Shown: piece by piece, positions 371-13,158 of the stretch
Position numbering within the stretch: position 1 is the first letter of the stretch
How the letters are laid out: each line of letters starts with the position of its first letter
Origin: Nitrosospira sp.
GTDB taxonomy: Bacteria; Pseudomonadota; Gammaproteobacteria; Burkholderiales; Nitrosomonadaceae
NCBI GenBank assembly: GCA_030453055.1
Contig: JAKDLC010000026.1
Location: 1-13,158 of the forward strand
DNA length: 13,158 nt
Direction: 5' to 3'
Translations under genes and position numbers: made by a program
The notes under the pieces: generated by a model
What the model saw: only the letters and a program-made list of their open reading frames with translations
Told to the model about the DNA's origin: nothing
Databases searched by the model: none

Positions 371-802
371 ATGGCCTACGATATTCAACAGGTAGTCAAT
401 ATGTCTCAAGCCGAGCTCGACCGGTTGTTTTCCGCCAGTGAGCCCGGTGACATTCCCAATGGTGAAGCAAATGGTACGGCCATTATCGCGCTTGGAACTC
501 CCTACAGCTACGCTGTCTCGCAGATAATCAGTTACTTCGCCTGGCAGGGCAAGATATTCGACGCCAAGAGCGGCACGTTGAAGAATGAGATCACACCCTT
601 CGGCCTTCGCGCTATCATCGCCAAGGTCTACAAGGCCGACAGCTGGTTCGACCAGAAGCCGTGCATCGTCCTCGACTATTCCGAAACCTCGATGGTTGCG
701 CACTGGATACGCGACGAAATCCGCCTGGTTGCAGACAAGCAATATTTGGGTAAGGTGTACTGGGGCAAGAAACACCTTATCGATTTCTTTTTGCAGTTCT
801 GA
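371..802 (+). CDS. small protein of unknown function, paralogue of the next gene
   Basis: A 143-residue protein with no signal peptide or membrane segment. I do not recognise a named family. It is clearly a paralogue of the protein at 1117-1572. Both share PGDIP near residue 25, GTAI, AWQGKxFD, ITPFGL, AKVY-x-x-SW, DYS-x-TS-x-VA and IRDEIR, and end with YLGKV-x-WGK followed by a hydrophobic DF. The pattern of short strands with Trp and Gly suggests a small beta-rich fold (inference). The ATG follows a strong purine-rich ribosome binding site and a sigma-70 promoter. Because it sits upstream of heme enzymes, it may bind their substrate or product or act as an accessory factor, but nothing in the sequence proves this. 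Codons end in C or G noticeably more often than in its paralogue. Confidence 0.85.
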   Translation: MAYDIQQVVNMSQAELDRLFSASEPGDIPNGEANGTAIIALGTPYSYAVSQIISYFAWQGKIFDAKSGTLKNEITPFGLRAIIAKVYKADSWFDQKPCIVLDYSETSMVAHWIRDEIRLVADKQYLGKVYWGKKHLIDFFLQF

Positions 803-1116
803 GAGATTCCGCCGGCGCTCAGAAGATCAAAATTCCCGCCAAAATACTTTTGGACGGTTAGCCGACGGTTGCGTAGGTATTTCTGCAACCACTTCACTTG
901 GAACTCATCGTTATCTTTGGGCGCCGCGCCGAGCAACCCCAGGGCGGAATCAATGATCACCGGGGTATGAGTCGCGGCTGCCCGCGCCCCGTTCCCTTAT
1001 TGCGCGCGGTACGCCGTACTTCTTCTGGCTTCATCCTCGCATATCATGGGTTTTCTTGCTATAAATCAAGTGTCGCGGGGCATTTGGTTTACTTGTTTTA
1101 ACAAGGAGCAACTAAA
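803..1116. other. intergenic region between the two paralogues
   Basis: This 314-base gap separates the two paralogous small genes. No GC-rich hairpin followed by a T run is visible. The minus strand is open from about 996 leftwards into the 3' end of the first gene (to 676). Its translation between 996 and about 803 (for example KWLQKYLRNRR, LTVQKYFGG) looks more protein-like than random, but it has no clear start with a ribosome binding site. It could be a decayed gene fragment. An extended -10 element lies near 1057-1065. Confidence 0.35.
1057..1065 (+). promoter_or_regulatory. possible extended -10 promoter of the second paralogue
   Basis: TGCTATAAA has the TGn extension plus TATAAA expected of an extended -10 element. 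No good -35 box lies 17 bases upstream. It would start transcription near 1072, about 45 bases before the ATG at 1117, so the second paralogue and downstream genes may have their own promoter. Confidence 0.3.
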
Positions 1117-1572
1117 ATGAACGATACGGTAAGAACCTGGTTGGGTAAAACACGCGAAGAGTTGGATGAAATCTATCGTAACGGCAAACCGGGAGACATT
1201 CCGGTTGGTGATACGCGCGGCACAGCGATTCTGGCAGGGTCAATCTTCTCGAAAACGGTAGCTGCCCTCGCACGTCTCCTTGCTTGGCAAGGTAAAGTAT
1301 TTGATCTCTTTTGCCCCGGTAGCCAGGCTGGTATTCTTGTCAACAAAATTACGCCATTTGGTCTGACATTCATTGTCGCGAAAGTATATCGTGACAAAAG
1401 CTGGCTCGACGGGAAGGATACCATTGTCATCGATTATTCTAAAACTTCATTTGTCGCCAAAGTGATTCGCGATGAAATTCGTGAAATCGAACCCGGTGTT
1501 TATCTCGGGAAGGTGTGGTGGGGTAAGACGCGCGTCCTGGATTTTGCTCTGACCAAACAAGAAGTCGTATAA
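1117..1572 (+). CDS. small protein of unknown function, second paralogue
   Basis: A 151-residue protein, paralogous to the product of 371-802 along its full length. It carries PGDIP, GTAI, AWQGKVFD, ITPFGL, AKVYRDKSW, DYSKTS, IRDEIR and YLGKVWWGK. It has about five extra residues (around 66-76) after the AWQGK motif and a longer C-terminus. The start is well supported: AAGGAG at 1103-1108, eight bases before the ATG. No signal peptide or membrane helix is seen. Only 23 bases separate it from the preferred start of the next gene, so it is probably co-transcribed with the membrane protein, the DyP and the catalase-like gene. Its biochemical role is unknown. An accessory or lipid/peroxide-binding role is inference from context only. 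Confidence 0.88.
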   Translation: MNDTVRTWLGKTREELDEIYRNGKPGDIPVGDTRGTAILAGSIFSKTVAALARLLAWQGKVFDLFCPGSQAGILVNKITPFGLTFIVAKVYRDKSWLDGKDTIVIDYSKTSFVAKVIRDEIREIEPGVYLGKVWWGKTRVLDFALTKQEVV

Positions 1573-1595
1573 ATGTCTACGTGAGATGGAAGACT

Positions 1596-2900
1596 ATGAC
1601 ACCCCAATCTAGCTTCATGATTGCTGCGACTGTACGTGTCGGGCAGTTGGAAAACCTGCGCGCCCTATTGGCCTCGATGAATAAAATACCTGGTCATGCA
1701 GACTCCGATAATGGGCTGATTTCATTCAGGAAGTTTGATCGATTGCATTTTGCGCGTTTTGTAATCATAGAAGCAAAAACCGCACAGGAAATCAAAGAAT
1801 TTGGTGTGACGCCAAGAGCGTGGCCACCCACGCTTGCCTTTCTTGGCGACATCGATGGAGACATCCAACCTTTTTTAGTAGAACTTGTGGAGCATGCAGA
1901 ATCAGGTCTGAAAAAAATCTTTTCTCATTGCGAAGGGTTTTCCGAGGAAGATCAAAATCTTCTGCAATGGATGAAAGCGCACAATATAAATGCCAACGTT
2001 GATTATGTTAACTGGATTGGTCGAACGGTCAGGCAGATCCGTGAAGAAGCGGCGCTACATCGAAGTTTGTCTACCTGTTTACAGAGAATCGCTGACGATG
2101 TTGGCCGGGAGAACGTCCTGGTTTTACGGCAGAAGCTATTGTCTTATGTCGAAATGGAGAAATATGAGGGCAGGCTTACGTTATCCCCACCAGAGCCCAC
2201 GCCCACTGAATGGAAAGTCCGCAATCTTCTCCATAAGATCGGGGTGCCGTTGATCATACTTCTCTTATCCCCGCTATTATTGGTTATCGCACCTTTCTTT
2301 GCGCTACGTTTGAGAATGCTGGAACGTTCTGACCCTGAGCTCTTTATCCGCCCTGATCGTGAACATTTAACGGAACTTACCGTGCAGGAAGATTGGGATG
2401 TCAGTAATCAGTATAGTGTGTTCGGTGATGTGAAACCCGGTCTGTTCCGCTTGCTGACTTTCAAATTCATACTCTTGCTGACCGACTATTTTGCCAGGCA
2501 CCTATACAACCGCGGATTTCTCGCTCGAATAAAAACGATTCATTTTGCCCGTTGGGTGTTCATGGATAATAACCATAGAATTTTTTTCGCCAGTAATTAT
2601 GATGGCAGCCATGAAAGCTATATGGACGACTTTATCAATAAGGTCGGCTGGGGCCTGAATCTTACCTTCAGTAATGCTGCCGGTTACCCTACCACGAGGT
2701 GGATCATCAAGGAAGGCGCACAACGGGAGCATGCATTCAAATACACGCAAAGGCGGCATCAAATACCCACTGACACTTGGTATAAGGCCTATCCCGGATT
2801 AACGGCCGTTGATTTGGCGCGTAATAGTCGTATTCGGCAAGGCGTGGAAATTCGGCAATCCAATGATGCGGAACTCCGTGAATGGCTCAGCCTGATCTGA
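1596..2900 (+). CDS. membrane-anchored protein of unknown function with internal duplication
   Basis: A 434-residue protein from the ATG at 1596, which follows a GGAAG. An in-frame GTG at 1581 would add five residues but lacks a ribosome binding site. A strongly hydrophobic stretch at about residues 217-238 (PLIILLLSPLLLVIAPFFAL) should cross or anchor in the membrane. On each side lies a similar module. HFARFV (about 51-56) is followed by LAFLGDIDGD, and HFARWV (about 316-321) is followed by IFFASNYDGS; both are followed by a helical stretch. This suggests a duplicated ferredoxin-like (alpha+beta) domain, a fold class that also occurs in DyP peroxidases (inference). No heme or metal motif is recognisable. 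The gene is 15 bases upstream of the DyP gene, so a role as membrane partner of the DyP or catalase-like enzyme is plausible. Confidence 0.85.
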   Translation: MTPQSSFMIAATVRVGQLENLRALLASMNKIPGHADSDNGLISFRKFDRLHFARFVIIEAKTAQEIKEFGVTPRAWPPTLAFLGDIDGDIQPFLVELVEHAESGLKKIFSHCEGFSEEDQNLLQWMKAHNINANVDYVNWIGRTVRQIREEAALHRSLSTCLQRIADDVGRENVLVLRQKLLSYVEMEKYEGRLTLSPPEPTPTEWKVRNLLHKIGVPLIILLLSPLLLVIAPFFALRLRMLERSDPELFIRPDREHLTELTVQEDWDVSNQYSVFGDVKPGLFRLLTFKFILLLTDYFARHLYNRGFLARIKTIHFARWVFMDNNHRIFFASNYDGSHESYMDDFINKVGWGLNLTFSNAAGYPTTRWIIKEGAQREHAFKYTQRRHQIPTDTWYKAYPGLTAVDLARNSRIRQGVEIRQSNDAELREWLSLI

Positions 2901-2915
2901 GCAGGGAGTAGGGAA

Positions 2916-4430
2916 ATGAAAAAATCAAGCGACTTTCAATTCGATGATTTGCAGGGATTGCTACGCTTTGGTTATGGGAAATTAACCGATACCTGTTTTA
3001 TGTTGCTGAATATTGCAAATGTCGATCTGGCAAAAAAATGGCTGGATACGGCGCCGATCAACGGCGCCATTACGCAGGATCCTCCGCCGGATACGGCGCT
3101 GCAGATTGCTTTTTCCGTAGAAGGTCTGCGCGCACTGGGGCTAAAAGAATCGGTTGTCGATGGCTTCTCCGATGAGTTCATCGTTGGTATGGCGGGAGAT
3201 GAAAGCCGCTCTCGCCGCTTGGGCGACATCGGCGGCGATGCGCCGCAACGGTGGAAGTGGGGAGGCGATGCGGCGAAAGCGCCGCATGTTTTGTTACTGC
3301 TTTATGCCAGAAAAGGGCATATCAAAGCCTGGCGAAAAACCGTAGAAAGCGAACATTTCTCAAGGGCGTTTCAGCTGCTGGAAGAATTGCCCACACTTTA
3401 TATTGGCGACATTGAACCTTTCGGATTCGAAGACAGCATCAGCCAGCCAACCATTGACTGGATGCAACGACAAAGCACGGATGTCCATGAACGCGATCGT
3501 TTTTCCAACTTGCTGGCCGTTGGGGAGATGGTGCTTGGCTATCCCAATGAATATGGGCAATACACCGCACGGCCGCTCATCGATCCCGAGAAAGACAAAC
3601 TTGCAACCTTGCTGCCCAGTGCCCAGGATGACCCCGCACTGAAGGATTTTGGTCGTAATGGAACGTACCTGGTGCTTCGGCAACTGAGTCAGGATGTTCC
3701 GGGCTTCTGGCAGTTTCTTGACGAGGTGTCGGATCACGTGCCGCAGAAACGCGAACAACTGGCCGCCGCGATGGTGGGTAGAGAACGCAATGGTACGCCT
3801 TTGATTGCGGAACGCATTCCAGGTATCCCGCGCAAAGATCACAGGAACGAATTTACCTACGATCAAGACCCAAATGGGAACCATTGTCCGCTCGGTGCGC
3901 ATATCCGCCGATCCAACCCACGTACAGGCGATTTGCCGTCGGACGCAAACGGCTTTATCAGCCGGTCGATTAAAATATTAGGTTTTGGTCAAAGGCCGGA
4001 TGAGGACCTGGTTGCCTCTTCCCGTTTTCATCGTTTGCTGCGACGTGGCCGCACTTATGGACCAGCGCTTGCACCGAAAGATGCCATCAAACCGGATGCG
4101 CCTGCCGCAGAACGGGGTATACAGTTTATCTGCCTGGTGGCCAACATATCGCGGCAGTTCGAATTTGTTCAGAATGCCTGGATCATGAATAGTAAATTCA
4201 ATGGAGTGCAAGAGGAAAGAGATCCATTGCTGGGGAATCGCGAACCGTTGATGAGTGGTGAAAGCACTGATCATTTCAATCATCCCGATCAGTCCGGACC
4301 GATGCGGAAAACCTGTCACTTGCCGCAGTTCATTACCACCCTTGGCGGCGGATATTTTTTTATGCCCGGGTTGCGCGCGCTGAAGTACATTTCGGCCTTA
4401 CCTGCTAACGGGACGGATAGCTCATCATGA
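2916..4430 (+). CDS. DyP-type heme peroxidase
   Basis: A 504-residue dye-decolorizing-type peroxidase, a heme enzyme using peroxide as oxidant. The distal motif is at residues 169-178 (FGFEDSISQP), with the expected catalytic Asp at 173. The usual GXXDG ends here in Ser instead of Gly. CPLGAHIRRSNPR at 324-336 contains the probable proximal heme ligand His329. RRGRTYGP at 376-383 provides the conserved distal-side Arg. No Sec or Tat signal is present, so the enzyme is probably cytoplasmic or held to the membrane by the upstream gene product. The ribosome binding site GGGAG (2904-2908) lies seven bases from the ATG. The stop overlaps the start of the catalase-like gene by 4 bases (ATGA), so the two are translationally coupled. 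Family assignment is firm. Substrate is unknown; a lipid hydroperoxide is inference from the neighbours. Confidence 0.93.
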   Translation: MKKSSDFQFDDLQGLLRFGYGKLTDTCFMLLNIANVDLAKKWLDTAPINGAITQDPPPDTALQIAFSVEGLRALGLKESVVDGFSDEFIVGMAGDESRSRRLGDIGGDAPQRWKWGGDAAKAPHVLLLLYARKGHIKAWRKTVESEHFSRAFQLLEELPTLYIGDIEPFGFEDSISQPTIDWMQRQSTDVHERDRFSNLLAVGEMVLGYPNEYGQYTARPLIDPEKDKLATLLPSAQDDPALKDFGRNGTYLVLRQLSQDVPGFWQFLDEVSDHVPQKREQLAAAMVGRERNGTPLIAERIPGIPRKDHRNEFTYDQDPNGNHCPLGAHIRRSNPRTGDLPSDANGFISRSIKILGFGQRPDEDLVASSRFHRLLRRGRTYGPALAPKDAIKPDAPAAERGIQFICLVANISRQFEFVQNAWIMNSKFNGVQEERDPLLGNREPLMSGESTDHFNHPDQSGPMRKTCHLPQFITTLGGGYFFMPGLRALKYISALPANGTDSSS

Positions 4431-5632
4431 CAAAGATCAAGAATCGAATACTAAAAGCTATTCACAATTTTCTGATTATGCTGCTACGCATCGAGCGCCG
4501 GTTAGAACCCTGGTTTCGCCCACAATGGAACTATCTCTTTCGCGAACCCAGCGCGAAGGTTATCCAGTTCTTGATCAATCGGCGACGCAAGAACGAAGGC
4601 CTGCGACTGGCTGAAGAAAAATTCGACCCGGATGAAGAAGACAGCTTGAATGAAATTATCGATCTCATGATGGATCAGATGCGCGGGCGTTTCAAGCCGG
4701 GAGGGTATGAGCGGGGTGGCAATACAAAAACACACGGCATCGTGCGCGCTACGGTAACTATACGAGATGATTTGCCGGAACACTGTCGCAAAGGTGTTTT
4801 TGCCAATCCACGCAGTTATCCTGCCTATGTGCGCTATTCCGGACCAGGACCGAACGTGCCTGCTGATATCAATGATGTCGGTTTTATGAGCATGGCGGTG
4901 AAACTCATGGGTGTTCCGGGCGAAAAGCTCATGAGCGAGGAAAAATTTACGCAGGATTTTATAACAACCAGCGGCGGCGCGACGTTTGTCACACCCAACA
5001 CGCGGGAAAACGCCAAACTGCAATACTGGAGCCTGGTAGACATGACGCTTTATTATTTTATCAATCCGAAGGATTCCCACTTGCTGGACTTCTTCATGCA
5101 GAGTCTGTGGAATGAAACTCAGTATAACCCGTTGGGACGACGTTACTGGAGCTGCACTCCCTACCTGTTGGGTGAAGGACAGGCCATGATGTACTCATTC
5201 GTGCCAAAAACGTCAGAAGTTGAAACCCGTATTCCCGGTCTGCCATTTGGCACACCGCCTTTTAATTATCTGCGGGAGAACATGATCAAGACCTTGAGTG
5301 AGAAAGATGTCGAGTTTGATCTTATGATTCAACTACAGACGGATCCTCATTTAATGCCTATTGAAGATGGTTCGGTACGTTGGCCAGAAAAGCTTTCCCC
5401 GTTTATTCCTGCCGCCACAGTTCATATCCCGAAACAAAAGTTCGATTCCGAGGCGTACTTTGAGTTTGCCAAGCAACTGAAAATGAATCCTTGGCATTGC
5501 CTTCCTGAACATAGGCCATTAGGCAATCAAAATCGAGCACGCTTCAGAATGTATTATGAGTTATCCAACTTTCGGCAGGAGATGAATCAAACCACACATG
5601 TTGAACCAACCGGGGATGAAATATTCGATTAG
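4427..5632 (+). CDS. catalase-related heme protein (allene-oxide-synthase-like candidate)
   Basis: A 401-residue protein of the catalase-related superfamily, shorter than typical monofunctional catalases (about 480 or more). The distal heme His is His103 in the run TKTHGIVRATV. The preceding residue is Thr, as reported for coral allene oxide synthase, where catalases usually have Val. AYVRYS (133-138) matches the catalase segment after the distal helix. At the position of the catalase distal Asn the protein reads TTSGGATF (180-187), with no Asn. The C-terminal block NPWHCLPEHRPLGNQNRARF (354-373) plus RxxxY (Arg372 to Tyr376) supplies the probable proximal Tyr ligand. It overlaps the DyP gene by 4 bases. 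Loss of the distal Asn argues against an efficient H2O2 catalase. Fatty-acid hydroperoxide conversion is a plausible alternative given the lipoxygenase and COX-like genes nearby. Confidence 0.88.
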   Translation: MTKIKNRILKAIHNFLIMLLRIERRLEPWFRPQWNYLFREPSAKVIQFLINRRRKNEGLRLAEEKFDPDEEDSLNEIIDLMMDQMRGRFKPGGYERGGNTKTHGIVRATVTIRDDLPEHCRKGVFANPRSYPAYVRYSGPGPNVPADINDVGFMSMAVKLMGVPGEKLMSEEKFTQDFITTSGGATFVTPNTRENAKLQYWSLVDMTLYYFINPKDSHLLDFFMQSLWNETQYNPLGRRYWSCTPYLLGEGQAMMYSFVPKTSEVETRIPGLPFGTPPFNYLRENMIKTLSEKDVEFDLMIQLQTDPHLMPIEDGSVRWPEKLSPFIPAATVHIPKQKFDSEAYFEFAKQLKMNPWHCLPEHRPLGNQNRARFRMYYELSNFRQEMNQTTHVEPTGDEIFD

Positions 5633-5894: not shown

Positions 5895-6248
5895 ATGCAA
5901 CATATTTCAGTTAAGGAGCTGGTCGGGGAGAACGCCATAACGCTGGATGATGGTGAGGCAATTTTTTTCCGAATTCATGATCCGCTGATACGCGGTGAAA
6001 TGGTGGAGCTGGATTTCGACGGCGTGGAGATTTTTGCTTCCCCCTTCTTCAACGCGGGCATTGGTCGTCTGTTGGCTGATGTTCATCCCGACAACCTGAA
6101 CGCCTGTCTGAAATTTCAGCATATGCCCGCGCTGGGGGACCGTTTGCTACGCCGCGTGATCGAGAATGCCAAGGAATACTACGCGGCCAACCAGGGGCAA
6201 CGTGAGGCAATCGATCACATTGTCCACGAAGCCGCAGTGTCAATGTAA
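5895..6248 (+). CDS. STAS-like (DUF4325-type) domain protein
   Basis: A 117-residue single-domain protein. After an N-terminal strand and helix it has the pattern VELDFDGVEIFASPFFNAG (residues 37-55). This is a hydrophobic strand ending in D-F-x-G-V, then Ser-Pro-Phe-x-x-x-G at the helix start, typical of the STAS-like DUF4325 family related to anti-sigma-factor antagonists. Such proteins usually act by protein-protein interaction or nucleotide-dependent switching, not catalysis (family knowledge). GGGGAG (5881-5886), eight bases before the ATG, is a strong ribosome binding site. The TAA stop shares one base with the next ATG (TAATG), so the two products are probably made together and may form a complex. 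The long leader and strong promoter suggest tight control. Confidence 0.78.
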   Translation: MQHISVKELVGENAITLDDGEAIFFRIHDPLIRGEMVELDFDGVEIFASPFFNAGIGRLLADVHPDNLNACLKFQHMPALGDRLLRRVIENAKEYYAANQGQREAIDHIVHEAAVSM

Positions 6249-6874
6249 TGCCTTTGGTTGTCCGTGCCCGGATCATTGACATCCGGGCGGACACCCCAAA
6301 AGCTACTGATCGCTTTTTAGTCGATACTAATGCGTGGTACTGGCTGTTTTACCCCAGGGTTTCGCAGGCACCTTCCTCGCCTTCACCGCATCAGCTTGCT
6401 GACTACCCCGCCTATATCAAGAAAGCCATAGCAAACAAAGCTGCCCTGCATCATTACGCACTCGCTTTTGCGGAATTGGCGCACAATATAGAAAAAGCTG
6501 AACGGGAGATATACGAGAACCAAGCTGCGAGGAAAATAAGGCCTAAAGAATTTCGTCACGACTACGTCAACCAACGCCGCAGGGTTATTGAACTTATTGC
6601 CGATACCTGGGCAGATGTGATGAGTGTGGGCACCTTGCTGGACATGAATCTGAGCGCACCCTTTGTACAATCGGCGCTGACGCTATATCCCTCTGTGGGC
6701 CTGGACGGCTACGATCTTTTTATGGCGGAGATGGCGCTTCAAAACGGCATTACCCAGATTATCACCGACGATGGCGATTATGCGACTGTGCCAGGACTGA
6801 TTATTTTTACCGCTAACCAGAATGTCATCCATGCTGCCAGGTCCGCCGGCCAACTGATCAATCGTCAAGGTTGA
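6248..6874 (+). CDS. PIN-domain protein (putative ribonuclease)
   Basis: A 208-residue protein with the acidic layout of PIN nucleases. FLVDTNAWYW (23-32) carries the first Asp (26) and Asn. AFAELAHN (73-80) has Glu76. LDGYDLFMAEMA (152-163) provides the third acidic pair. ITDDGDYATV (172-181) supplies Asp174/175 near the C-terminus, followed by the strand LIIFTAN. The middle section (about 50-125) is longer and more charged than in small VapC toxins. It has no ribosome binding site of its own and overlaps the STAS-like stop by one base, so translation is probably coupled. A toxin/antitoxin-like or defence role is inference. A housekeeping RNase is less likely because of the pairing. Confidence 0.75.
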   Translation: MPLVVRARIIDIRADTPKATDRFLVDTNAWYWLFYPRVSQAPSSPSPHQLADYPAYIKKAIANKAALHHYALAFAELAHNIEKAEREIYENQAARKIRPKEFRHDYVNQRRRVIELIADTWADVMSVGTLLDMNLSAPFVQSALTLYPSVGLDGYDLFMAEMALQNGITQIITDDGDYATVPGLIIFTANQNVIHAARSAGQLINRQG

Positions 6875-7021
6875 AGTTGGTAGTTCCGATATATCACAAG
6901 TGGCTTTGAAGTCGAGAGTTGACGCACTGTAGGCAAAAATATAACGTAACTTAACTACGCCACTCTTTCACAAAATCCCCCTACAAAACCAAATCCTGCG
7001 CAATCATCACGCGAATTTATG

Positions 7022-7035
7022 AAACATCCGGGTTA
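7022..7035. repeat. 14-bp direct repeat, left copy
   Basis: AAACATCCGGGTTA occurs here, 28 bases past the lipoxygenase stop, and again at 10408-10421, just upstream of the COX-like start. The copies bracket the whole two-gene minus-strand operon. The rest of the 6875-7063 convergent gap shows no clear terminator. Confidence 0.5.
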
Positions 7036-7063
7036 AAATTGATTTGCGTGTCACAGCCCCTCA

Positions 7064-8731
7064 CTAAACGGTTACCCCGTTTGGAATCACTCTTGGATTC
7101 ATGCGGTCGTAGACGAAAGAACGGCTGCTGTTTCTTTTATCAATTTGCCCTTCTATTTCGTCTAGCCGGTCTCTGAACCGCCTTATCACATCGCGTGCTT
7201 CAGGGTCGAATTGCTGTAGCTCGTACTGACCAATCGAGTTGACACGAAAATTCGTCAGGAAATAGGTCCACGTTTGCGAATACGCAGATCGAAACGCTGG
7301 CAGGAACTTCAATAATTCAGCTGCCTTCATTTCAGCGTTTTTTCCCGCCGGAGGCGGGGCATAAGCTGAATACGGCATATTGGGAACGAATCCCGGATAT
7401 TTGTATTGGTGGAAGTGAATGCAGGAATGAAACGCAGTACATAGAAAAATGATATGACCAAGCGTCTCGGCCAGCTCTTGCCTGGACCCGAATCTGGCAG
7501 GAAACCCGGGGATTCTGCCGCGATCTCGTGCACTGATATCATTTGCCCACGCCTGAATCTCATGGTCTTCGGTAATGTCCGCTTCGGATTTGTAGTATAA
7601 ATCGACATATTCCTTGCTAAAGCTTTGAATTGCGTTCCATAACAAAACGCCATCATCGCGATAGGGATAAAAAAGATCAGGATTATCGACTTCCCGGTTC
7701 GCAATATCATCAGGAAAGGCGGATTCTTTGAAATCAAAGCTCGTCATGCCATTGGCCATGCACTGCATCGTCGAGTCATAGTCTCCGGCAAATAACTCAC
7801 CGAACCGGCCCGGGCGTCCTTTCCGGTTTTTCAGGAAAGTGTGCTGGTGATTGACATTGAGCGTATATTGAAGATGTGGATTCAATAGAATATAGAGCGG
7901 GTGAGATTTATAAAGCTGTCTCCGTGAGGCCATGATTATGGCCTCCATGACGTAGTGAATACGGGTCTCATGGGTATACAGTATTTGATGGTTGCCATCC
8001 GCGACTTGAGCGAACATTTTTGCTGTCAGCCATAGATTGCCGTCTTTTGAAGTATAGATTGCATTATCGGGTCTGGAATCCTGGTATAACTGTATGGCGA
8101 TCGGCCGCAACATGCCGTCCGATTGCAAAAACAACACGACGATCGGAGTCGTGACATATTGTTTTTGGCCGCCGTCGATATGCCCCGGGTTTAACTGCAA
8201 TACATCCAAGGCTGCATAGTCCAAGACATATACGCGCTTTTGTTCAATAGCAGCCTTATAGTCAATCTCATCAATTTGCGCTTCAAAAATGTGTCGGATT
8301 TCAGATTCCGGCAGCTTTTCCGGTAGAGGATTCTGGTTGGTTACAGCGCGCAATACCACGGGATTGACGCCAATGACGCGTTGCAGACCAAATATCAGAT
8401 CTTGCTGGAAGCTATCAACCAGATCGGGATTTGGAGGACTGGACGGAAAAAAAACATAGTCTCGATAGCTTGCCATCGGCTTGCCGAGCAAGTAGCGCAA
8501 AAAAGTGACCGAGAGACTGGGTAAGCTTGGAATCAACTGTAAAAGATTCATCCCCCCACGGAGCCAATATCCAATGCCGGGTATCTCTCGCCACGGCAGT
8601 TTACGCGCGACAGCAATAGTATTGGCATACTCATAGGCGTATTGATATTGCGCCTGCCTCTGAAGAAGATAATTTCTCCGATCTTCTACTGCGCGTATAT
8701 TTTCTTCGTTTTGTGGTAGCTTATTCGACAC
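7064..8731 (-). CDS. lipoxygenase without PLAT domain
   Basis: A 555-residue non-heme-iron lipoxygenase (fatty-acid dioxygenase). It starts at GTG, six bases after AAGGAG (8738-8743), and lacks an N-terminal PLAT/C2 domain. WLTAK (234-238) leads into the iron helix, with His248 and His254 then TH, Glu263 and HPLYILLNPHLQYTLNVN (277-294). AFHSCIHFHQY (433-443) gives the third ligand His435 and the fourth-position His439, which is His as in mammalian enzymes and not Asn. PNMP follows. The chain ends RVIPNGVTV, so Val555 is the carboxylate ligand where Ile is usual. The first ligand pair is spaced HX5H; the family norm is HX4H. Ala315 in ELFAGD aligns with the Coffa-Brash Ala typical of S-specific enzymes. 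FPDDIANREV (339-348) is a family signature. It lies 54 bases after the COX-like gene in the same operon. Substrate and regiospecificity are unknown. Confidence 0.93.
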   Translation of the reverse strand: MSNKLPQNEENIRAVEDRRNYLLQRQAQYQYAYEYANTIAVARKLPWREIPGIGYWLRGGMNLLQLIPSLPSLSVTFLRYLLGKPMASYRDYVFFPSSPPNPDLVDSFQQDLIFGLQRVIGVNPVVLRAVTNQNPLPEKLPESEIRHIFEAQIDEIDYKAAIEQKRVYVLDYAALDVLQLNPGHIDGGQKQYVTTPIVVLFLQSDGMLRPIAIQLYQDSRPDNAIYTSKDGNLWLTAKMFAQVADGNHQILYTHETRIHYVMEAIIMASRRQLYKSHPLYILLNPHLQYTLNVNHQHTFLKNRKGRPGRFGELFAGDYDSTMQCMANGMTSFDFKESAFPDDIANREVDNPDLFYPYRDDGVLLWNAIQSFSKEYVDLYYKSEADITEDHEIQAWANDISARDRGRIPGFPARFGSRQELAETLGHIIFLCTAFHSCIHFHQYKYPGFVPNMPYSAYAPPPAGKNAEMKAAELLKFLPAFRSAYSQTWTYFLTNFRVNSIGQYELQQFDPEARDVIRRFRDRLDEIEGQIDKRNSSRSFVYDRMNPRVIPNGVTV

Positions 8732-8785
8732 GCGGCGCTCCTTTACAGAAAATAAAACTCGCTTGGTATCTCAAATAATTCCGGG

Positions 8786-10393
8786 TTAGCTGTCTGATGA
8801 CCGAGTCGGTGTCTGGAAGCTTGCAACGACCGTATCGCTATCCTTTACGTTACGGTTAACAATATCCGCAAGCGAGTTTGTTTCTTCAATGATAGATTGT
8901 CCAACCCTTGAAAATGTCATTTCGTTGTGTACGTAGACCGATACAAGCGGGTTTGTCAGCGCGTGGGTGAACGCATCATAACCAACCATCCGTACCATAA
9001 GGGGTCCAAGACTAAAGCCTTCATCATGATCTTCGGCGGATATGCCGACCTGCCACTCCAGATCCTCGATCCGGCCATTATAGAGTTCCTTCAGTTCTCG
9101 CTGTAGTTCGTGATCATCCGTTAATTCCTCGAAACTCCTCAAGCGAGGCATGCTGAATGCTTCACGATAGTCATTGAATGAACGCAGCTTGGCTTGGCGT
9201 CCCATTGCGACGGTGCGCTCCATGACGCTTCTATTATCGTCACCGACAGGAATCGGATCGAAAAAGAAACCATGGGTATTGTGAAGACCAATACGGCCGG
9301 CTCGTTGCATCGACGCCGCCGTTATCAGCGGCCCGATGCCATATTGAGTGACCAAAGGGGTATTGTTACGAAATTCATCCAGCTTGTATAACTTGTCGCC
9401 AACCACATAGTTTTCCGGGACCATCGAGTGCCATCGGTACAGGAGATTGAATTCCAGGGAGATCCAGTTGGTACGGTACCAGCGCTGTCTTTCCGCCAAA
9501 TCAGGGGATGGGTCAAGGGTAAAACCAAACTGTGTAAAGCGCGAGACGTAATCCCGCAAAACCACTTTGATCAGCAGCACGATCATGATGTTTCTGGCCG
9601 TCTGAAACAGGCGTTCATCATCCCATCTTGAATAAGCCCCCTTTAACGAATCACAAATCCGATTGTGTTCACGCAGCAGGAGCGTATTCATTATGGTATA
9701 GCCAATCGACGAATTGCCGTGCTCCAAGCCGGTGGCAAGCATGCGTTTTAACCGGTTCTCGGGAACGTTGTTGAAAACAAAATCCAAAGCGTATCGCGGG
9801 TGCAACTTCTCAAATTCTTCATTGGCGAACACCCAATTGCCGGTAGTCGTCTCATCAACGTTAAAAAGATAGGGAGGAAAAATTTCTCCATCGATAATCT
9901 GGTACTTCAGTTTTCCATCCTTTTGTAACCGTAAATAGTGTGTAACTTCTTCGCGCAAACCATAAATCTGGCAAAGATCGATTTCGTGATTCGATGTATT
10001 TTTTCGACGATCGCGAAAATCCGTTCTAAGGAAACTATCGGTAAACCATTGGGCAAAGAAAGAAAATAGTATGCTTGTATCGACCGAAGGTATTTCTTTA
10101 TTCTCTTTTCTTCGCCATAGATCAACGACTTTTTCTATGCTCGGAAAATTCTGATCTCCTTCCGCCTCTGGCAGATGTCGTCCGGTAAATGACCTGTCAG
10201 TCAACGATTGCCATGTGGTATACGACGAAGCCATTGAAAACGGCCTGGGACGAGGGTTGGTGGAATAGGCTTGCCAATTGATGAAAGTGTCGCTGATGAA
10301 TCGCCGCAACCACGTTATCCGCGATGCAATCCTGGCAATCCATGGGAACCTGTTTACAATCCGGAAAACAATCTGAAAAAAGAATTCGTTCAT
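8786..10393 (-). CDS. cyclooxygenase-like heme dioxygenase
   Basis: A 535-residue member of the animal heme peroxidase superfamily, strikingly similar to prostaglandin endoperoxide synthases. Matching blocks (numbered from ATG 10393) include FFAQWFTDSFLRTD (112-125), DGKLKYQIIDGE (159-170), LLREHNRICD (239-248), RLFQTAR (261-267), EFNLLYRWH (314-322), SFNDYREAF (405-413) and SFEELT (420-425). Tyr319 matches catalytic COX Tyr385 and His322 matches proximal His388. Gln115 matches Gln203, but the distal His207 position is Asp119. The aspirin-site Ser530 is not conserved and no clear Arg120 equivalent is seen. There is no signal peptide or EGF domain. An amphipathic N-terminus (about 3-38) resembles the COX membrane-binding helices. 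AAGGGGG six bases upstream favours ATG at 10393 over an in-frame TTG at 10399. It is the first gene of an operon with the lipoxygenase. The product is probably an oxygenated fatty acid; prostaglandin formation is unproven. Confidence 0.92.
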   Translation of the reverse strand: MNEFFFQIVFRIVNRFPWIARIASRITWLRRFISDTFINWQAYSTNPRPRPFSMASSYTTWQSLTDRSFTGRHLPEAEGDQNFPSIEKVVDLWRRKENKEIPSVDTSILFSFFAQWFTDSFLRTDFRDRRKNTSNHEIDLCQIYGLREEVTHYLRLQKDGKLKYQIIDGEIFPPYLFNVDETTTGNWVFANEEFEKLHPRYALDFVFNNVPENRLKRMLATGLEHGNSSIGYTIMNTLLLREHNRICDSLKGAYSRWDDERLFQTARNIMIVLLIKVVLRDYVSRFTQFGFTLDPSPDLAERQRWYRTNWISLEFNLLYRWHSMVPENYVVGDKLYKLDEFRNNTPLVTQYGIGPLITAASMQRAGRIGLHNTHGFFFDPIPVGDDNRSVMERTVAMGRQAKLRSFNDYREAFSMPRLRSFEELTDDHELQRELKELYNGRIEDLEWQVGISAEDHDEGFSLGPLMVRMVGYDAFTHALTNPLVSVYVHNEMTFSRVGQSIIEETNSLADIVNRNVKDSDTVVASFQTPTRSSDS

Positions 10394-10411
10394 ATCCAAC
10401 CCCCTTTAAAC

Positions 10412-10450
10412 ATCCGGGTTATCCGGGTTAAGTGGCAATTGGCCGGATAA
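10412..10450. repeat. tandem and inverted repeat upstream of the COX-like gene (operator candidate)
   Basis: ATCCGGGTT occurs twice in tandem (10412-10420 and 10421-10429). TTATCCGG (10419-10426) is also inverted as CCGGATAA (10443-10450) with 16 bases between the arms. The element lies between the predicted minus-strand -10 box and the COX-like ribosome binding site. It could be a repressor site or an mRNA stem. The upstream member belongs to a 14-bp repeat also found at 7022-7035. Confidence 0.5.
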
Positions 10451-10465
10451 CGCAGTTTTATTATG

Positions 10466-10471
10466 ATTATA
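10466..10471 (-). promoter_or_regulatory. -10 box for the COX/LOX operon
   Basis: On the minus strand this reads TATAAT, a perfect -10 hexamer, about 70 bases before the ATG at 10393. No good -35 box is found 16-18 bases upstream (about TTCTGC). If real, the promoter is weak and may need an activator. Confidence 0.4.
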
Positions 10472-10480
10472 GTCGGTCCG

Positions 10481-10508
10481 TTGTAAAACGCAGAAAATGG
10501 ACTATGAT
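10481..10508 (+). promoter_or_regulatory. sigma-70-type promoter of the subtilase gene
   Basis: TTGTAA (10481-10486) and TATGAT (10503-10508) are separated by 16 bases. Transcription would start near 10515, about 43 bases before the ATG at 10558. It is divergent from and close to the COX/LOX promoter region, so shared control is possible. Confidence 0.5.
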
Positions 10509-10557
10509 AAAAATTATCCACGATCTTTCATCTTTGATTAGCAAGTAAGGGAATTCA

Positions 10558-12603
10558 ATGCCGTCATTTATCCGTCCGCCGGAAGAACAAGCAAGTGTCA
10601 AACCATTTGATCCGGTAGTGCTTGACAGCTCAGTCATCGCTATCCCGCTTCTCCGGCAGATGGAGCAAGAATTACGGAGAATTAAAGTCTTTCAGGCTGA
10701 GCATCCCCATGCCCCGCGCGAGTTCAACGCCGTGATCGAATACAACAGGACGGAGCCCGATAGGGCGGAGGAGATGCGAGCCCTTGTCGTCGAGATGGCG
10801 GATCGTGCGGCAAATAAGGCTGTGGAAGCATCGAAAAAACGTCTTGCCGCGATCGCGCCCGCCGGGAAACAAATTTCCGATGATTCGACTAAGCGTCGTG
10901 CCGATATTTATGGGGATATGCCCTTGATGGAGCTGAGGCGGCACGCGGCGCTCGAAGTTGCAAAAGCCGAGCAAAGGATTGGCCCCCTTCAGGAAGATGG
11001 AGCCTATGGCTTTGCCAACCTGCACGCGTCCATCATCCGCCGCCTGCTGGCCGAAAACGATCGGATATCGGCGACGGGTGAGGAGCGGAGTAGACCCATC
11101 GTTCAAATTCATCCCGTCCGATATGAGATCATCATCGATCTGAATCTTGAGTATCCTGGCGGGCGGGAGGCCGCACGCCGCTGGGTGTTTAACAACATCG
11201 AGCAGGCTAAAGAAAAAGCGAATGTCCACGACGCCGGTCAGGATGTTCATCTCAAGAAAGACCAGCGGGAAAGCAGCTACGTATTCGCACGGCTGGAAGC
11301 GCGGGTTATCAAAGCCCTTGTCGATCTCGATATCGACGAGGTCAAGAAGGCGGAAGCCGGAAATCGTGATGCAAGCCTGGACAATTCGGCCGGTGCGCCG
11401 AAAGTCAGTCCGAGCAAATTTCGCGCGATCTTTCGTATCTGGCCGGACTTTGAGGTTTCCGCGTATATCAACAAATCAATCGCCACAGTGAAGGCGGATG
11501 CGGCGCAAAATTCCTTTTCCGCGCATGGTGCGGGAATCACATGGGCTGTTATGGATTCGGGTATCAAGCACGATCATGAGCACTTCCTTAAACATAACAA
11601 TGTCGATACAAATTTAACATGGCACAAGGATTTCACGGTGGATGGCAGTGGTCCGTTCGATGATGAAAATGGACATGGCACTCATGTGGCCGGTATTATC
11701 GCCGGCGAATGGTGCGTGACAGCCGAGGCGCCGGCGTCCGCCGCAGCGCCCACGTCCACGGCTGCGCCCAAACCCGCTGCGCGAATACCTATCGCAGTCT
11801 CGCGCTACTTGAAAAAGGACTTCGGGGATGTCGAGTACCAGCCGATAAAACTCGTTGAGGGCGTAAGGGGCATGGCCCCGCGGTGCAAGCTTGTGAGCCT
11901 GCGCGTGCTTGACGAAAACGGAAAAGGCAGCGTGAGCAATCTCATCGCCGCGATCGGTCATGTACAGGAAATTAACGGTTACGGCCGCAGGCTTCTAATC
12001 CAAGGAGTCAACATGAGTCTGGGATACAACTTTGAGCCCGAGTGGTTTGCGTGCGGCCAGAGTCCGCTCTGTGTGGAGGTCGATCGGTTGGTAAAAACGG
12101 GGGTCGTTGTCGTTGTGGCGGCCGGCAATACCGGATACGGAACGCTAAAGTCCTCTATCGGTGCAACGGCTGCGGGCATGGCTCTGACAATCAATGATCC
12201 CGGCAATTCCGATCTTGCCATCACAGTCGGTTCAACGCATCGCGACATGCCGCATGTTTACGGGGTGTCATACTTTTCCTCCAAGGGGCCGACCGGCGAT
12301 GGCCGCCTCAAACCGGACCTCGTTGCGCCGGGCGAAAAGATTATTTCGTGCGCGACGGGCAACCTGAAAAATAAGGGTGCGCATGGTATCGAGTGCGATT
12401 ATGTGGAAACCAGCGGTACGAGTATGGCGGCTCCCCATGTCAGCGGCGCAATCGCCGCATTCCTGTCGGTGCGCATTGAATTCATCGGCAAGGCGGAACG
12501 CGTTAAGGAGATTTTTCTCGCTTCGGCCACGGATCTGCGGCGTGACCGGTATTTTCAAGGTGCCGGCCTGGTCGATTTGATGCGCGCCATTCAGTCGGTA
12601 TAA
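10558..12603 (+). CDS. subtilase (S8) serine protease with repetitive N-terminal region
   Basis: A 681-residue subtilisin-type serine protease. The catalytic domain spans about 322-680. Asp333 is in AVMDSGI, His373 in NGHGTHVAG, the oxyanion Asn524 in VAAGN and Ser622 in SGTSMAAPHVSG, so the triad is complete. The first 320 residues are much longer than a standard prodomain and carry repeated units (strands AVIEYN, EIIIDLN and AIFRIW; helices YGFANLHASIIRRL and YVFARLEARVIKAL). An Ala/Pro-rich insert (about 389-409) follows the His motif and looks like a flexible linker. No Sec or Tat signal is present, so it is probably cytoplasmic or exported by another route. AAGGGA (10547-10552) precedes the ATG. 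The alpha/beta-hydrolase-like gene follows 60 bases later. The substrate is unknown. Confidence 0.92.
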   Translation: MPSFIRPPEEQASVKPFDPVVLDSSVIAIPLLRQMEQELRRIKVFQAEHPHAPREFNAVIEYNRTEPDRAEEMRALVVEMADRAANKAVEASKKRLAAIAPAGKQISDDSTKRRADIYGDMPLMELRRHAALEVAKAEQRIGPLQEDGAYGFANLHASIIRRLLAENDRISATGEERSRPIVQIHPVRYEIIIDLNLEYPGGREAARRWVFNNIEQAKEKANVHDAGQDVHLKKDQRESSYVFARLEARVIKALVDLDIDEVKKAEAGNRDASLDNSAGAPKVSPSKFRAIFRIWPDFEVSAYINKSIATVKADAAQNSFSAHGAGITWAVMDSGIKHDHEHFLKHNNVDTNLTWHKDFTVDGSGPFDDENGHGTHVAGIIAGEWCVTAEAPASAAAPTSTAAPKPAARIPIAVSRYLKKDFGDVEYQPIKLVEGVRGMAPRCKLVSLRVLDENGKGSVSNLIAAIGHVQEINGYGRRLLIQGVNMSLGYNFEPEWFACGQSPLCVEVDRLVKTGVVVVVAAGNTGYGTLKSSIGATAAGMALTINDPGNSDLAITVGSTHRDMPHVYGVSYFSSKGPTGDGRLKPDLVAPGEKIISCATGNLKNKGAHGIECDYVETSGTSMAAPHVSGAIAAFLSVRIEFIGKAERVKEIFLASATDLRRDRYFQGAGLVDLMRAIQSV

Positions 12604-12605
12604 AT

Positions 12606-12631
12606 ATCCTGAACATACACATCCTGAACAT
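12606..12631 (+). repeat. two direct copies of ATCCTGAACAT
   Basis: ATCCTGAACAT occurs at 12606-12616 and 12621-12631 with a 15-base period, right after the subtilase stop and before the next ribosome binding site. It is probably a local duplication. A role as a binding site is possible but unsupported. Confidence 0.55.
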
Positions 12632-12663
12632 TCCTTAAAAACAGAAAAAAAGGAGCATACCTT

Positions 12664-13158
12664 ATGAATGAGATCGCCGGAATTCCTTACATTGAAGCGG
12701 AATTCGACAAGAATGGCGTGGGGACCGGAGCGCAAATCAACGTGCCCGCTGGAGTGACGGATCTCTTCGTCATATCGCACGGATGGAACAACAACAAGCT
12801 CAGGGCCGAGGAGGTGTATCGCAAATTCTTCGAGAATTTTGTCGCAGTTGCTCCCCCCGGCGATTTGCCGGGACGCAACTTCGCTATAGTCGGTATAATC
12901 TGGCCTTCCAAAGAGTACGACGCGTCCGTCGCCGTTTCCGGGGTATCGGGCGCGGCGCAAGGCTCCGCCGGACTTGGAGTTGCAGATGCGGAGTCCGGCA
13001 AGGCCCTGGAAGAAAAGCTCGATCAGATGAAAGATATTTTCACAGAGCCCCGGCAACAGCAACTTCTCGATGAAGCAAAAGCGCTACTTCCGGATCTCGA
13101 CGAAAAAACCTCCGCGCGGCTTGATTTTGTGAACAAAATGCGCTCCTTGCTCGATCCG
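12664..13158 (+). CDS. alpha/beta-hydrolase-like protein, 3' end beyond window
   Basis: The reading frame is open from the ATG to the last base (165 codons), so the protein is truncated only by the window edge. AGGAG (12651-12655), eight bases upstream, supports the start. TDLFVISHGWNNN (32-44) has the strand plus His-Gly-Trp motif that forms the oxyanion region of many alpha/beta hydrolases and lipases. A second strand, FAIVGIIWPSKEYD, follows near 73-86, as expected when the fold continues. A Gly/Ala/Ser-rich run (about 88-105) comes next, then a charged helical region. The nucleophile Ser elbow would lie beyond the window. It is probably co-transcribed with the subtilase. A lipase or esterase role is possible but unproven. 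Confidence 0.75.
   Translation, partial: MNEIAGIPYIEAEFDKNGVGTGAQINVPAGVTDLFVISHGWNNNKLRAEEVYRKFFENFVAVAPPGDLPGRNFAIVGIIWPSKEYDASVAVSGVSGAAQGSAGLGVADAESGKALEEKLDQMKDIFTEPRQQQLLDEAKALLPDLDEKTSARLDFVNKMRSLLDP

Follow-up and report, generated by a model that had tools for sequence, protein, structure and literature searches.

A gene for a cyclooxygenase (COX)-like protein and a gene for a lipoxygenase (LOX) lie next to each other in a 13,158-nucleotide stretch of Nitrosospira sp. DNA (contig JAKDLC010000026.1 of assembly GCA_030453055.1; this whole stretch is hereafter called the window), and comparison of genomes revealed a pair conserved in some ammonia-oxidizing Nitrosomonadaceae. The conserved pairing extends to a set of six gene families, the other four of which are encoded on the opposite strand of the window. 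From the sequences, we consider a bacterial oxylipin-type gene set fairly probable, in which a fatty-acid heme dioxygenase and a LOX would form hydroperoxides and catalase-related and DyP-type enzymes would process them; the whole looks like a signalling or defence pathway on fatty acids, rather than prostaglandin synthesis.

The COX-like gene (8786-10393, minus strand; ATG start, with an in-frame TTG at 10399 just outside it) encodes a putative fatty-acid heme dioxygenase of 535 amino acids (aa), and the LOX gene (7064-8731, minus strand; GTG start) a mini-LOX of 555 aa. The initial annotation had described them as neighbours on one strand, 54 bases apart and with no gene between them, and both the open reading frames (ORFs) and the gap (8732-8785, minus strand, with AAAGGAG right before the LOX GTG) were confirmed. 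The motif matches on which it had relied were equally borne out, as LYRWH, DGKLKYQIIDGE, LREHNR and IPNGVTV were all found in the translated ORFs and are joined by matches to Pfam families and solved structures. The COX-like protein matched An_peroxidase (PF03098; 138.3 bits, cut-off 25), and among solved structures its sequence comes closest to prostaglandin G/H synthases, at a best E of 3.6e-63, with alpha-dioxygenase and peroxinectin next (2e-17 to 3e-17). The LOX scored 206.8 bits against Lipoxygenase (PF00305; cut-off 23.6), and its closest solved relatives are the 569-aa 'Arachidonate 15-lipoxygenase' chains 5med, 5mee and 5mef (E about 1e-70), which we take to be the Cyanothece mini-LOX CspLOX2. 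Judged by these scores, both family matches are far beyond chance. The pair is conserved, and its two genes are probably transcribed together. A promoter and terminator scan of 6800-10700, which returned 11 promoter-like sites (6.9 in shuffles) and eight terminator-like sites (3.8), played no part in the conclusions.

Among 125 species genomes of Nitrosomonadaceae, 24 contain a match to the COX-like protein: a close homologue in 17 (75-100% identity) and a distant match only in seven, at 38-42% (G095, G037 and G052), 49% (G080) or 25% with short better stretches (G009, G043 and G075). LOX is present in exactly the 17 genomes with a close COX homologue (Fisher p 2.5e-21, kinship ignored), and in all 17 the two genes are adjacent on one contig, COX first, with a gap of 57-199 bases between aligned ends. 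The scenario raised with the initial annotation, that the homologues might never be neighbours in other genomes, therefore fails. The 80 best of 164 named COX-like loci were also compared, a sample that overlaps with the 125 genomes and is not independent of them. Fifteen of these loci have COX identity of at least 74%; LOX adjoins COX in 14, all Nitrosomonadaceae, while in the remaining one (L085) the contig stops within the COX gene. At the other 65 named loci no LOX was seen beside COX in the flank covered, which is short for some. Thus the pairing, described earlier simply as bacterial, is conserved in Nitrosomonadaceae but is not general: the COX-like genes examined mostly occur without LOX, and the nitrifiers with the conserved pair stand apart.

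Close relatives outside Nitrosomonadaceae probably also have the pair. Both the COX and the LOX clusters include one named from Methylomonas (73% and 70%), and in 10 of 36 close COX clusters the longest contig is exactly the same size as that of a LOX cluster (0.09 expected from shifted lengths), which hints at COX-LOX linkage in relatives down to 66% identity. Short size matches may be accidents, as one of 3,941 bases also fits a catalase-related cluster, for which there is no room beside both genes. At class level, a LOX match was found in six of 369 genomes, the window's own included; besides the window's genome only one of them is close (G408, 42%), and in the 19.5 kb covered there no homologue of the COX, catalase-related or DyP genes was found; the other four match at 26-27% identity. 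In-frame stops were flagged in some COX and 439-aa relatives (the latter described below); recoding was rejected for COX, as at the seven flagged loci inspected the stops sit at C-terminal ends. No account of a COX-LOX pair in nitrifiers was found in the open-access papers searched, and one may be published elsewhere; in the accessible portions of two papers, a Nitrosomonas europaea LOX is mentioned in one line (PMC11941309) and bacterial cyclooxygenases were called putative in 2015 (PMC4420034).

The initial annotation was confined to the two oxygenase genes; beyond it, window genes on the opposite strand were found to match the phyletic distribution of the COX-LOX pair. The plus-strand genes at 371-5632 form a contiguous module, which consists of (i) a 143-aa protein (371-802) and its 151-aa paralogue (1117-1572); (ii) a 439-aa protein with a hydrophobic stretch (1581-2900), directly before (iii) a DyP-type peroxidase-like protein of 504 aa (2916-4430); and (iv) a catalase-related hemoprotein of 401 aa (4427-5632). 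Close homologues of all four families are present in the 17 COX-LOX genomes and additionally in G081, with thresholds set at visible gaps in the match lists (at least 88% for the catalase-related, 69% for the DyP-type and 78% for the 439-aa protein); for the 151-aa query any match was counted, which in seven Nitrosospira is a 47-48% identical paralogue. At E <= 0.001, the catalase-related, DyP-type and 439-aa queries match 47, 48 and 31 of the 125 genomes, respectively. LOX and the catalase-related gene are separated by 67-1,438 bp in eight genomes and by 11.1-16.4 kb in six, and are on different contigs in three. In the window, the region between the two (5895-6874) encodes a STAS-like DUF4325 protein and a PIN-domain protein; the corresponding spacing in the other seven Nitrosospira genomes is 67-225 bases in six and 1,352 in G097, and the DUF4325 and PIN-domain genes look like an insertion.

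The catalase-related protein, a candidate fatty-acid hydroperoxide-converting enzyme, has a predicted model with catalase-type fold and carries the proximal RxxxY motif (R372xxxY376). The best solved match of its family is the allene oxide synthase (AOS) domain of the coral AOS-LOX fusion (1u5u). A Thr-His distal pair is typical of the coral AOS, and the window protein has T102-H103, which HMMER does not align to that pair. For the DyP-type protein, profile matches are below cut-off (TIGR01413, 60.7 bits against 100.5; PF21105, 20.1 against 27.5), and solved peroxidases are matched at E 1.4e-41 (8re2) and 3.5e-25 (DyP2, 4g2c). The matched distribution of these two genes suggests a pathway shared with COX-LOX. 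The 439-aa and 143/151-aa proteins have no significant Pfam match, and a PDB search with the 151-aa protein returned chance-level matches only. A segment of the 439-aa protein (314-413, about 100 residues) is matched by separate short ORFs of 13 further genomes of the genus, and in 12 of the 13 a distant DyP match sits nearby on the same contig (none in G107); the sequence matches suggest that this segment is a DyP partner domain. An anti-phage role was considered and rejected, as among the ten window proteins PADLOC matched the subtilase only.

Residues of the COX-like protein were mapped by alignment to mouse COX-2, in which the COX numbers were assigned by hand; they were then compared across the best 120 of 3,986 protein matches plus 82 rows (named loci, the window and a paralogue); the named loci were found via the patterns FFAQWFT and SNHEID[LF]C, which a His-bearing bacterial branch may have escaped. 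The protein keeps Tyr319 (Tyr385 in COX), His322 (His388) and Tyr282 (Tyr348), together with the Gln203 and Trp387 equivalents. Those of Tyr385, Trp387, Tyr348 and His388 are invariant in 120 of the 120 listed homologues, and those of Tyr385 and His388 also in all 80 rows of the named-loci alignment that have the position (two gaps). The distal His207 is replaced by Asp119, and this Asp is found in 37 of 37 close-clade rows (window included), in 81 of 81 other homologues with the position (three gaps) and in a paralogue on contig C424; likewise, it is present in 81 of 81 rows for the named loci, window and paralogue, the single gap being a 50-aa fragment (L125). Further replacements are Ser530 by Ala474, Gly533 by His477, Gly526 by Val470 and Tyr504 by Gln448, as well as Arg120 by Gln41 and Tyr355 by Phe289, two variable columns in which placements are less sure. 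The predicted structure has the COX catalytic fold and three N-terminal helices, and its structural alignment begins at COX residue 82-84, so an EGF part is absent. Thus the window protein shares with animal COX-1/2 the whole catalytic fold, these helices and Tyr385, His388, Tyr348 and Trp387, but has a distal Asp and is without Arg120, Tyr355, Ser530, Gly533 and the EGF part. Judged by these residues, 'cyclooxygenase' is too strong a name and is not supported, with the distal His, Arg120, Ser530 and Gly533 all replaced.

With its FTDSF distal motif, Ala at the Ser530 position and Tyr at the 348 and 385 positions, the protein has the features of distal-Asp enzymes of the Nostoc 10S-dioxygenase (10S-DOX) kind. 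Asp is the acid-base catalyst in DyP enzymes. The linoleate 10S-dioxygenase of Nostoc punctiforme (B2J5P4) is said, after work by Brash in 2014, to be encoded adjacent to a catalase-related 10S-hydroperoxide lyase. Like the window protein, it combines the distal Asp and Ala for Ser530 with the catalytic Tyr and proximal His, and like the window its locus has a catalase-related gene in the neighbourhood; in contrast, the window adds LOX, DyP, 439-aa and 143/151-aa genes, and its catalase-related protein is 25-33% identical to the Nostoc partner. In the accessible part of a 2026 review (PMC13049297), the Nostoc enzyme departs from COX at distal His207, its residues are given as F143-tds-F, Tyr342, Ile483, Ala487 and Gln490, and it turns linoleic and oleic acid into 10S-hydroperoxides; as this Asp-bearing enzyme is active, dioxygenase activity can go together with a distal Asp. 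The window protein was not filed as a 10S-DOX itself because it has His477 instead of Gln490, a His shared by 36 of 36 close-clade rows with the position (one gap).

In a tree of 47 rows, which contains no animal COX sequences, the window protein falls in a 14-row clade (100/99) of Nitrosomonadaceae, one Methylomonas protein and others, and the Nostoc proteins fall in another clade (100/99, eight rows) together with the Nitrosospira paralogue. Given the separate clades, the window enzyme is related to 10S-DOX as a cousin and not as its orthologue, and may have another regiochemistry. The paralogue, a second COX-like gene of the same genome (L004:15830-17404), is about 40% identical and has the distal Asp; no LOX, catalase-related or DyP homologue was found on its 19.9-kb contig (C424). 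The sister group of the window clade (96/91, five rows) includes two bacterial COX-P450 fusions. Such fusions, with An_peroxidase and p450 Pfam matches, were seen in Marivivens (L065:9902-12856), Mesorhizobium loti (L104:9908-12889) and Planktomarina (P0053), those of L065 and P0053 being in the sister group, and they resemble the fungal DOX-CYP layout.

In the window LOX, H254, H259 and H435 are invariant among 11 aligned LOX, and H439 (a probable ligand) and the C-terminal Val555 are also present; presumably these five residues serve as iron ligands. The PF00305 domain, the three His, the His/Asn position and the C-terminal carboxylate of lipoxygenases are thus all found. The bacterial mini-LOX CspLOX2 (5med) likewise consists of the catalytic domain only and keeps the iron ligands, but the window LOX neighbours a COX-like gene. 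A LOX occurs together with a catalase-related hemoprotein in the coral AOS-LOX and the Acaryochloris catalase-LOX fusions (the latter named in the accessible part of PMC11719350), whereas in the window the genes are separate and convergent and accompanied by a COX-like dioxygenase.

The observations concern the genes and their neighbourhood, residues, predicted folds and matched distribution, and from them we infer the following activities, substrates and order of steps. The COX-like protein would be monotopic and belong to the distal-Asp family of bacterial fatty-acid heme dioxygenases (Nostoc 10S-DOX kind). Peroxide would oxidise its heme, with the distal Asp in place of His as the presumed acid-base catalyst; the ferryl heme would then generate a Tyr319 radical that abstracts an allylic hydrogen, and addition of O2 would yield a mono-hydroperoxide. 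The adjacent LOX may form a second hydroperoxide at a different position from 1,4-diene acids, and the catalase-related hemoprotein and DyP-type peroxidase may convert or reduce both.

Monoenes could serve as substrates of the heme dioxygenase, but LOX needs a 1,4-diene. For N. europaea and N. stercoris, C16:0 and C16:1 are given as major fatty acids (accessible part of PMC4567560), so the LOX substrate has no obvious source in the cell, and one has to assume trace, conditional or exogenous polyunsaturated fatty acids (PUFA). Here the case for an oxylipin-type gene set has its main gap, and several other points weigh against it. The activities of all proteins of the set are predictions. FA_desaturase (PF00487) is found in 125 of 125 genomes with types not distinguished, and is thereby uninformative as a sign of PUFA supply; two of the three matches in the window's genome were read, and sequence did not settle their regiospecificity. 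G081 carries the module without COX and LOX, and remote catalase-related and DyP homologues occur in many genomes without either oxygenase. The likeness to Nostoc 10S-DOX is limited to about 37% identity, with the other clade and the His477 for Gln490 noted above. Finally, no catalase-related gene was seen in the flank covered at five of 20 cyanobacterial COX-like loci or at most non-cyanobacterial ones; at the other 15 cyanobacterial loci such a gene adjoins a COX-like gene of the distal-Asp kind, which speaks for the oxylipin-type set.

Four other explanations were weighed. The gene set might serve detoxification of lipid peroxides or defence against fatty acids, the oxygenases consuming toxic exogenous unsaturated acids and the catalase-related and DyP-type enzymes clearing the peroxides, with no signal produced. 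The two peroxide-handling heme enzymes that match the COX-LOX distribution fit this, as do the major acids of N. europaea, which are without PUFA so that substrates may be external (PMC4567560, accessible part), and PUFA toxicity, one role discussed for bacterial LOX in the part available of PMC6612559; yet generating hydroperoxides is an odd route of detoxification, and neither N terminus shows an evident signal peptide on inspection by eye, so that exogenous acids would be met only inside the cell. We regard it as unlikely. To our knowledge, only one relative of the COX-like protein, and a distant one, has been tested for function, and the distal His, Arg120, Tyr355, Ser530 and Gly533 of COX are all changed; the protein may thus be a heme enzyme of another pathway (a peroxidase or tailoring enzyme) paired with LOX for some other lipid or secondary-metabolite product. 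This is quite improbable, as the Tyr385, Trp387, Tyr348 and His388 equivalents are invariant in the listed homologues and the Nostoc enzyme, which shares the Asp, has dioxygenase activity (PMC13049297, citing Brash 2014, in the part available).

That two unrelated oxygenase genes merely travel together on a transferred island, their common distribution reflecting inheritance and not function, would agree with the patchy presence (17 of 125 genomes), with neighbours that differ between Nitrosospira and Nitrosomonas and with counts that ignore kinship. However, COX-LOX adjacency held while the surroundings changed, and the pair and the plus-strand module lie apart in Nitrosomonas and still co-occur, making this very unlikely. 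A true cyclooxygenase forming prostaglandin-like endoperoxides from C20 acids is barely credible: the Arg120, Tyr355, Ser530, Gly533, Gly526 and His207 equivalents all differ, the characterised distal-Asp relative yields mono-hydroperoxides (PMC13049297, accessible part), and C20 PUFA are not among the major acids given for N. europaea in the accessible part of PMC4567560. Prostaglandin synthesis was accordingly ruled out as the principal explanation by the missing key COX residues. The proposal of an eicosanoid-like pathway in the initial annotation runs against the replaced residues, the 10S-hydroperoxides of the Nostoc relative and the C16 lipids of N. europaea (the last two from sources seen in part), and eicosanoid chemistry at this locus is unlikely.

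Surroundings of the pair differ among loci. A subtilase gene and an alpha/beta-hydrolase-like gene (10558-13158) are divergent from the COX-like gene in the window and also in all six named Nitrosospira/Nitrosovibrio loci compared; the L052 homologue of the hydrolase-like gene has an Abhydrolase_1 Pfam match. Near COX-LOX, a patatin phospholipase is found in three Nitrosomonas loci (L062 and L064 by Pfam, L107 by ORF cluster), an aldehyde dehydrogenase in two N. marina loci (L062 by Pfam, L107 by cluster), large animal-type heme peroxidases and GMC oxidoreductases in some Nitrosomonas loci, and a tyrosinase cluster in four loci of both genera; none of the phospholipase, dehydrogenase, peroxidase, GMC or tyrosinase clusters was found in the flank compared at L054, L056 and L059. 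In Nitrosomonas mobilis, a caspase-domain (Peptidase_C14) gene with Sel1 repeats (L061:3943-5778) lies directly downstream of COX-LOX.

A further-reaching possibility, which we hold to be doubtful, is that ammonia oxidizers assembled a complete oxylipin cascade independently of animals, in which the COX-like protein and LOX feed the catalase-related and DyP-type enzymes, possibly acting sequentially on one chain, and doubly oxygenated lipids are released to neighbouring organisms. If so, the phospholipase and aldehyde dehydrogenase in some Nitrosomonas would complete a bacterial parallel of the arachidonate cascade. The invariant distal-Asp variant of the COX heme pocket may offer a system for tyrosyl radical formation without a distal histidine. 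For a family reported to have simple C16 lipids, the conserved gene set raises the question of which fatty acid nitrifiers would oxygenate, and for whom.

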